Part shown: one piece after another, positions 5,518 through 49,872 of the stretch | Layout: every line of letters starts with the position of its first letter | Numbering within the stretch: the stretch's first letter is position 1 | IMG/VR virus record: IMGVR_UViG_3300022888_000001 | Location: 1-50,328 of that record | From: a virus | DNA: 50,328 nt | Reading direction: 5' to 3' (one strand) | Made by a program: the position numbers and the translations under genes | Notes under the pieces: model-generated | Seen by the model: the letters and a program-made list of their open reading frames with translations, nothing else | The model's database searches: none | Told to the model about the DNA's origin: nothing

Positions 5518-5631
5518 CAAGCGCAACATCTCTTTAGGTTGGGGTCGATAACCAGTGAGGAAATTGCGCTTGACTTTGAAAACTTGGAGTTACCTCACAT
5601 GACGTATGTAAGGCGTATACTGGTTATCGAC
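5518..5631 (-). promoter_or_regulatory. Structured 5' leader with interleaved inverted repeats (copy 2 of 3)
   Basis: Two perfect inverted repeats are interleaved: 13 bp (5619-5631 with 5544-5556, GTCGATAACCAGT on the minus strand) and 9 bp (5564-5572 with 5518-5526). On the minus-strand transcript the order is arm B, arm A, arm B', arm A', the order of an H-type pseudoknot or of two mutually exclusive hairpins. The first arm starts 6 bases after the -10 box of the promoter at 5637-5665, at the predicted first transcribed base. The GGGGTC ribosome-site motif of the SMC-like gene follows. Confidence 0.65.
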
Positions 5632-5636
5632 ACTTA

Positions 5637-5665
5637 AAAATACAATCTTTTAATGTGCTATGCAA
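5637..5665 (-). promoter_or_regulatory. sigma70-like promoter for the recombination operon
   Basis: -35 TTGCAT (5660-5665), 17-bp spacer, -10 TATTTT (5637-5642), read on the minus strand. The boxes are weak on their own, but spacing and position match the stronger promoters at 49601-49629 and 35648-35676, which also lead straight into interleaved-repeat leaders. Confidence 0.5.
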
Positions 5666-35541: not shown

Positions 35542-35644
35542 GTGAACTGATTGAGTGGATGGAAAACCATCGATGCCCCGGCAGGATATAAATTTGACTT
35601 CCGTAAAAATTGCGATCTTTCAAAAGGCGTAATCAGTTCACGCC
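35542..35644 (-). promoter_or_regulatory. Structured 5' leader with interleaved inverted repeats (copy 3 of 3)
   Basis: On the minus-strand RNA, GGCGT (35640-35644) pairs with ACGCC (35626-35630); the hairpin loop plus the last bases, GTGAACTGATT (35631-35641), is perfectly complementary to AATCAGTTCAC (35542-35552). Pairing of a hairpin loop with a downstream segment is the pseudoknot layout. The 11-bp arm starts 7 bases after the -10 box. Two small hairpins (TGCC-GG-GGCA and GATGG/CCATC) lie between the arms. Confidence 0.65.
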
Positions 35645-35647
35645 TCC

Positions 35648-35676
35648 AATATATATCGTAATTTCTTCATTGTCAA
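35648..35676 (-). promoter_or_regulatory. Near-consensus sigma70 promoter for the late operon
   Basis: TTGACA (35671-35676), 17 bp, TATATT (35648-35653), the same as the tRNA promoter. Transcription should start near 35641. Confidence 0.85.
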
Positions 35677-35709
35677 GTATTCGCACAAAATAAACAAAAC
35701 TACACTTTT

Positions 35710-35742
35710 CGCAAGTTTGTCGCAAGTTTGTCGCAAGTTGCT
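35710..35742. repeat. Three 11-bp direct repeats in the divergent region
   Basis: CGCAAGTTTGT at 35710 and 35721 and the variant CGCAAGTTGCT at 35732, repeated every 11 bases, one DNA turn. Lying in the divergent intergenic region just upstream of a plus-strand -35 box, they are candidate sites for a replication initiator or a transcription regulator. Confidence 0.75.
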
Positions 35743-35770
35743 TGGTTTCTGCTCACGAATTGGTTATGTT
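35742..35770 (+). promoter_or_regulatory. Possible promoter of the accessory operon
   Basis: TTGGTT (35742-35747), 17 bp, TATGTT (35765-35770) on the plus strand. A weak match but with the shared spacer, abutting the 11-bp repeats. The rest of the 35771-35935 leader is A/G-rich and shows no gene. Confidence 0.4.
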
Positions 35771-35935
35771 ATGTGTAGTAAGATTAACGCACATTGACAT
35801 AGAGCCGGAGCAAGAAAGAAACGCAAACGGACATTTGAAGCAGGACACAGGCAAATAAGGGAACCAAACGCAGACGCAGACCGAAAGCAAATAAACAAAC
35901 ATAAACACAACGCAGGATTAAAAAGGGGTCGAACC

Positions 35936-49198: not shown

Positions 49199-49483
49199 TT
49201 AAAAAGCAGTTAACGTGACGGGAACAATAAACTCTCTGCGATTTTTACCGCTACATCCCAATTCACCAATAACAAGAGTTTTTCCCCTTAGACTGTCAGC
49301 ATAATTCTCAAGAGCCTCTTCAGGTGTATTCCCATTGCCAAATGTGGCAGTTAGGACACTATCACATTTTATACCCGAGCTTTCAAACGAAGCATACCAT
49401 CGCGAAATATCTCTGCAAGATGTTGGTCTGTTGAGTATTTCTATCTGCGCTTTGGTGATGTCTGATAATTCCTGTAATGTCAT
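49199..49483 (-). CDS. Small hypothetical protein
   Basis: 94 residues, first gene after the promoter at 49601-49629 and its structured leader; AAGGGGTCGGATAAA site. Pattern FGNGNTPEEALENYADSL resembles a small phage/phage-like beta-alpha protein. Unknown. Confidence 0.65.
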   Translation of the reverse strand: MTLQELSDITKAQIEILNRPTSCRDISRWYASFESSGIKCDSVLTATFGNGNTPEEALENYADSLRGKTLVIGELGCSGKNRREFIVPVTLTAF

Positions 49484-49512: not shown

Positions 49513-49594
49513 CAATGCCCCGGTCGCTGTTACCTTTGCACTTATGTGAAAGACGAGCCGGGGCATTGACTAAAACTGATCGTACAAAGGTAAC
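49513..49594 (-). promoter_or_regulatory. Structured 5' leader with interleaved inverted repeats (copy 1 of 3)
   Basis: 10-bp repeat GTTACCTTTG/CAAAGGTAAC (49585-49594 with 49529-49538) interleaved with an 11-bp repeat CAATGCCCCGG/CCGGGGCATTG (49558-49568 with 49513-49523), both perfect. On the transcript the order is B, A, B', A', a pseudoknot or switch. The first arm starts at the seventh base after the -10 box, i.e. at the predicted start of transcription. The GCCCCGG arm also resembles the complement of the AAGGGGTCGG site before the gene, so the arm could reach the ribosome site (inference). Confidence 0.7.
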
Positions 49595-49600
49595 GATCAT

Positions 49601-49629
49601 AATATAAACCCAATCTTTCACAAAATCAA
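49601..49629 (-). promoter_or_regulatory. sigma70-like promoter inside the replication operon
   Basis: TTGATT (49624-49629), 17-bp spacer, TATATT (49601-49606) on the minus strand. The start of transcription would be near 49594. Confidence 0.75.
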
Positions 49630-49632
49630 GCT

Positions 49633-49872
49633 CTAAACGATCTTGTACGAAGCCTCAACCGTCTGCTCTGCTCTATAAACCTTCATATCATGTGAAAAGC
49701 ATTTGAGAGAAAAGCTGTCAACACAGATTGCATTACATGTTGCTCCACTACTATTCTCGAACCACGGGAGCTTGCAATGAATCATTTTATGATTATTAAT
49801 ATCTACAAACAACTCCCTATCTTCTATTTCCTGAAACGTCACGACGCTTGGCATTCCTGCGACCTTACTCAT
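49633..49872 (-). CDS. Small hypothetical protein
   Basis: 79 residues, AAGGGGTCGGAA leader. Beta-rich with three Cys (TCNAICVDSFSLKC). Follows the helicase stop by about ten bases. Unknown. Confidence 0.62.
   Translation of the reverse strand: MSKVAGMPSVVTFQEIEDRELFVDINNHKMIHCKLPWFENSSGATCNAICVDSFSLKCFSHDMKVYRAEQTVEASYKIV

Follow-up and report, generated by a model that had tools for sequence, protein, structure and literature searches.

Three minus-strand leaders in the DNA of an uncultured tailed phage share one layout: a promoter-like site is followed, at the predicted first transcribed base, by the 5' arm of a long helix (S1). A second helix (P2) would enclose the 3' arm of S1 in its loop, so that the two would cross. 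We tentatively interpret the leaders as 5'-terminal pseudoknots in which the 5' end of the mRNA could be locked away from 5'-end-dependent decay, with the ribosome site kept clear of the fold. The arms, their register and their recurrence are read directly from the DNA; the start sites, the formation of the pseudoknots and their protective effect are what we infer from them. The stretch analyzed, hereafter the window, spans 50,328 nucleotides (positions 1 to 50,328 of IMG/VR record IMGVR_UViG_3300022888_000001) and includes portal, terminase, capsid, and tape measure genes, although the record may be a fragment of a genome.

The original prediction described a promoter leading straight into interleaved inverted repeats at 49629-49513 (leader 1), and this observation was confirmed, with all of its coordinates holding on the minus strand. 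S1 is a perfect helix of 10 bp (13 bp with one G-U pair) and P2 a perfect helix of 11 bp, arranged in the order S1-P2-S1'-P2' between the end of a 79-aa gene at 49633 and the start of a 94-aa gene at 49483, which is preceded by AAGGGGTCGGATAAAATG. The features of leader 1 are as follows:

49601..49629, minus strand: promoter-like TTGATT-17-TATATT, 9 of 12 consensus matches, weak by itself
49577..49599, minus strand: dyad TGATCGT-N9-ACGATCA straddling the predicted +1, centred at +7
49585..49594, minus strand: S1 5' arm GTTACCTTTG, predicted +1 to +10
49558..49568, minus strand: P2 5' arm CAATGCCCCGG, an inverted-repeat arm
49529..49538, minus strand: S1 3' arm CAAAGGTAAC, within the P2 loop
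49513..49523, minus strand: P2 3' arm CCGGGGCATTG, ending 29 nt upstream of the start codon
49491..49496, minus strand: Shine-Dalgarno (SD)-like GGGGTC of the leader 1 gene
49199..49483, minus strand: first gene downstream, 94 aa, without a family match

With a 6-nt discriminator, the predicted +1 falls at 49594, the first base of S1, and an A+U-rich stretch, CTGTTTATTAAATAAA, separates P2 from the SD. GGGGTC takes the place of the usual GGAGG in 7 of 68 genes (49872, 49483, 39135, 38272, 35936, 5494, and 4108). Upstream of the predicted start lie TGTGAAAGA (49622-49614, minus strand) and TCGTACAA (49650-49643, minus strand), both perfect complements of parts of leader 1; such pairing could be relevant only to read-through transcripts.

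Leader 1 had been grouped with two further leaders into a family with one layout and differing arm sequences, and such a common layout was supported; each S1 has its first base on the predicted +1. Coordinates for leaders 2 and 3 were absent from the original prediction and were assigned here as 5631-5518 and 35641-35521; the GGAGGT site placed before one of the genes fits leader 3. The features of leader 3 are as follows:

35648..35676, minus strand: promoter TTGACA-17-TATATT, 11 of 12 matches
35625..35645, minus strand: dyad AGGCGT-N9-ACGCCT straddling the predicted +1, in the same register as in leader 1
35631..35641, minus strand: S1 5' arm GTGAACTGATT, predicted +1 to +11
35565..35582, minus strand: P2 5' arm GCCGGGGCATCGATGGTT, 18 contiguous pairs (12 Watson-Crick and 6 G-U) with a core of 11
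35542..35552, minus strand: S1 3' arm AATCAGTTCAC, within the P2 loop
35521..35538, minus strand: P2 3' arm GATTGTTGATGTCCCGGC, ending 23 nt upstream of the start codon
34970..35497, minus strand: first gene downstream, 175 aa, without a family match

S1 of leader 3 is 11 bp long, and a 6-nt discriminator again places +1 on its first base. Upstream of this promoter, at 35700-35745, are three copies or near-copies of a direct repeat of about 11 bp, TCGCAAGTTTG, which look like regulator sites. The divergent operon has a U-poor leader (35796-35935, plus strand) with 10 T and 66 A per 140 nt, the opposite of the highly structured leader on the minus strand. The features of leader 2 are as follows:

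5637..5665, minus strand: promoter-like TTGCAT-17-TATTTT, read from the sequence, weak and weaker than that of leader 1
5619..5631, minus strand: S1 5' arm GTCGATAACCAGT, predicted +1 to +13
5564..5572, minus strand: second-helix 5' arm CAAGCGCAA
5544..5556, minus strand: S1 3' arm ACTGGTTATCGAC
5518..5526, minus strand: second-helix 3' arm TTGCGCTTG, ending 23 nt upstream of the start codon
4118..5494, minus strand: first gene downstream, a 458-aa AAA ATPase (phrog_1499)

Here S1 is 13 bp long and starts on +1 with a 5-nt discriminator. The AAA ATPase heads a recombination operon (Gam-like, Erf-like), and a tRNA gene with its terminator-like hairpin lies upstream of the promoter.

Across the three leaders, S1 measures 10-13 bp and the second helix 9-18 bp, and S1 spans 66 bp in leader 1, 88 bp in leader 2, and 100 bp in leader 3. 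The gap from the last helix to the start codon is nearly constant, at 29, 23, and 23 nt in leaders 1, 3, and 2. All three predicted transcripts begin with 5'-GU and all three S1 3' arms end in AC; in the other 8 of the first 10 pairs of S1, both bases vary among the units, and every one of these pairs is Watson-Crick. The covariation described in the original prediction is in this case one between units of the same genome, which may not be homologous.

When each leader was shuffled, a helix as long as the one observed rarely began at +1 to +3: 7 of 40,000 for leader 1 (at least 10 bp), 5 of 40,000 for leader 3 (11 bp), and 0 of 40,000 for leader 2 (13 bp). Over 1587 promoter-by-spacing tests in the window, the longest +1 helices were those of leaders 1 and 3 (10 and 11 bp), against a background of at most 8 bp. 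We also scanned for the whole layout, defined as S1 of at least 10 bp, an interleaved P2 of at least 9 Watson-Crick pairs, an SD with a start codon, and a -10; this returned three sites in the window, namely leaders 1-3. No site with a promoter appeared when the window was shuffled 60 times, and loci from phages and prophages that are distant relatives, 2.34 Mb in all, had no site with a -10. The scan criteria were set with the three sites already known, making these figures descriptive; the evidence that the layout is non-random is strong, but carries no formal significance.

Related sequences were scarce. The leader 1 stretch has a 100%-identical copy in a second IMG/VR contig from a different dataset, making an assembly error unlikely. 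IMG/VR searches with the portal and capsid proteins and with the proteins encoded beside each of the three leaders returned either 100%-identical contigs or nothing, and terminase-based searches reached relatives of about 50% identity at most. Comparison of the first-gene proteins with 47 virus records gave no usable leader homologue (a single weak match, at 25%, was found for the 94-aa leader 1 protein), and no comparable leader is present in a 48.8-kb relative whose AAA ATPase is 25% identical. By its portal, capsid, and first-gene proteins, the phage thus stands alone in the searched collections. Many of the best genome matches were to Ignavibacteriae MAGs, which we take as a hint to the host and no more.

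Folding of the leaders supported the plausibility of a pseudoknot. All three fold better than their shuffles (z of -3.8, -3.2, and -3.25). In nested folds computed from +1, nucleotides 1-5 were unpaired with a probability of 0.97-1.00 in leader 2, 0.65-0.96 in leader 3, and 0.41-0.61 in leader 1. The S1 duplex alone is worth 12-20 kcal/mol in the three leaders, and the usual pseudoknot penalty is about 9 kcal/mol; Vienna does not score pseudoknots, so that the resulting balance is an estimate. By this estimate leaders 2 and 3 would lie at or beyond balance, with the pseudoknot favored, while leader 1, which has an alternative nested structure of similar energy, would lie near balance or, with the 13-bp S1, on the side of the pseudoknot. 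Judged by its loop lengths and by this energy estimate, a pseudoknot, as originally proposed, is plausible.

Control of translation through a hidden SD was not supported. SD accessibility was 0.42 in leader 1, 0.55 in leader 3, and 0.32 in leader 2, ordinary values next to a median of 0.53 over the genes of the window. Sequestration of the SD does occur in the nested folds of all three leaders, yet the other genes of the genome are no more open, and we rejected it as a distinguishing feature. A kissing-hairpin model for leaders 1 and 3, in which a 9-nt hairpin loop would pair with the P2 loop, was likewise rejected: the 5' arm of that hairpin runs from -5/-4 to +2 and starts upstream of the predicted start, making the hairpin impossible in RNA made from the leader's own promoter. 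A scan for the kissing-hairpin layout elsewhere gave chance levels.

Among the functions first suggested for these structures, protection of the 5' end is the best fit to the anatomy, as judged from sequence: the 5' nucleotide would sit in a blunt helix, the fold lies outside the 30S footprint, and the sequence of S1 is free. In the mechanism we envisage, the first transcribed base of three separate mRNAs would open S1, and the triphosphorylated 5' end would be held in a blunt helix, out of reach of RppH, the 5' sensor of RNase E, and RNase J, although these enzymes may not be those of the host. The B. subtilis RppH requires at least two unpaired 5' nucleotides (PMC3997798). The predicted fold would end 23-29 nt before the start codon, just beyond the region covered by the 30S subunit, and the outcome would be a longer-lived operon mRNA with its ribosome site left outside the fold. 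Base pairing at the very 5' end is reported to stabilize mRNA in E. coli, in work of 1992 attributed to Bouvet and Belasco and to Emory et al. The stabilizing 5' stem-loops of ompA, papA, and aprE pair the 5' end at or very near +1 and leave an open ribosome site downstream, as the phage leaders are predicted to do. Those are local hairpins, whereas the 5' arm of the phage leaders would pair with a remote segment that is interleaved with a second helix, a design that recurs three times in one phage. Interleaving might hinder easy opening of S1 from one side. The weakness of the leader 1 and leader 2 promoters and the nested alternative of leader 1 count against this reading, and as a plain 5' hairpin would protect equally, the interleaving suggests a further role.

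One such role would be that of an autoregulatory operator, in which a phage protein, for example one from each operon, would repress translation by binding to the pseudoknot, following the example of T4 gp32 on the mRNA of gene 32; we consider this unlikely, though it is the most credible of the alternatives. In the T4 mRNA, a pseudoknot lies about 67 nt upstream of the start codon, and an A+U-rich stretch after it covers the ribosome site (PMC3014915). The likeness is that of a phage mRNA leader with a 5' pseudoknot upstream of its ribosome site, a layout that all three leaders have as sequence potential only, and leader 1 adds its own A+U-rich stretch between P2 and the SD. The recombination proteins encoded in the leader 2 operon also speak for an operator. 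In contrast to gene 32, S1 of the phage leaders starts at +1, the helices are long (10-13 and 9-18 bp), the three operons are unrelated, and no protein is known to bind them. The A+U-rich stretches of leaders 2 and 3 are short, and, as the arms differ, one protein for all three leaders would need to recognize them by shape alone. Moreover, the first genes encode an AAA ATPase and two proteins without a family match rather than an ssDNA-binding repressor, and those of leaders 1 and 3 belong to no recognizable RNA- or ssDNA-binding family.

A two-state switch, also among the original suggestions, would have S1 compete with other pairings, such that ligand, temperature, or read-through transcription converts the pseudoknot into a nested fold and back. 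The similar energies of the two folds in leader 1, the pairing of leader 1 parts with TGTGAAAGA and TCGTACAA, present only in read-through RNA, and the dyads straddling +1 in leaders 1 and 3 would all suit a switch. Nevertheless, the alternative pairings differ from one leader to the next, SD accessibility is ordinary, and there is no conserved ligand-binding core, and we regard a switch as rather improbable.

We give still less weight to antitermination in the manner of HK022 put, with the leader as an element that would act on RNA polymerase from the beginning of a long operon. In all three cases a promoter-like site and then the leader head a multi-gene operon, and the HK022 putL and putR sites are similarly structured RNAs directly downstream of the promoters of long phage operons. 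In particular, putL is located immediately downstream of PL and needs no protein for its action (PMC9378689). The put RNAs are, however, about 70 nt long and consist of two stem-loops with a common sequence, whereas the phage leaders are interleaved and their S1 helices differ in sequence. The put reading is further weakened by the lack of a clear terminator excess in the downstream operons, in which terminator-like sites were no more common than in shuffles.

It is very unlikely that the inverted repeats are DNA-level operators, that is, repressor binding sites rather than RNA helices. A CGT-N9-ACG site centred at +7 is common to leaders 1 and 3, which account for two of the four such sites in the window. 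The S1 and P2 arms are non-palindromic, the S1 spans vary, and the S1 sequences differ, and for these reasons no one DNA-binding protein could recognize S1. An exact start at +1 is, in addition, a property of RNA, and unrelated arm sequences with kept complementarity argue for RNA helices over a common DNA-binding site. The +1 dyad of leaders 1 and 3 is a separate matter: most of its 5' arm falls within the discriminator, which places that arm outside the transcript from the leader's own promoter, and the dyad may be a separate DNA operator or an element of read-through RNA. Finally, shuffles often yield one interleaved pair when the threshold is low, but with three promoter-bearing sites in the window as opposed to none in the 60 shuffles, and a +1 helix frequency of about 2e-4 or less per leader, chance is scarcely credible as an explanation.

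Going a step beyond protection of the 5' end, and with somewhat more reserve, we propose that the leaders may represent a new class in which a hairpin farther downstream would receive the mRNA's own 5' end in its loop. This would be a reusable 5'-terminal pseudoknot 'cap' whose layout would be selected and whose sequence would be free, in at least three operons of one phage. The exoribonuclease-resistant xrRNAs of flaviviruses lie inside transcripts, in 3' UTRs, and have a defined ring fold. The phage leaders would share with them a pseudoknotted fold, a possible block to 5' to 3' decay, but are placed at the predicted 5' end. The threefold recurrence at +1 is surprising, and if the proposal is correct, it would give phages an RNA-only route to protect or control their mRNAs through a structural cap at +1 with free sequence. 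Such a cap would be missed by sequence-based searches for RNA families and could be found in other phages by its layout. At the gathering score, Rfam matched no family in the window except a tRNA; for leaders 1-3 on either strand its matches were weak (E of at least 0.15), and blastn against phages and plasmids returned no match for the leaders.

Other repeats and hairpins recur in the window. We set aside the interleaved pair at 21831-21754, which lacks a promoter and is part of a plain intergenic hairpin in the capsid operon. The intergenic hairpins of this operon at 22935-22860 and 21800-21734 (minus strand) are near-copies that have TTTGCAGGAG...CTCCTGCAAAT in common, followed by AACTTGAGG or AAACTTGAGG. 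The motif CCGGGGCA occurs nine times on the two strands of the window, as compared to 0.57 expected. Among these sites, leader 1 has the motif in both arms of P2 and leader 3 in one, and the hairpin that follows the tRNA gene has it in both arms; in leaders 1 and 3, the order of the arms is swapped.
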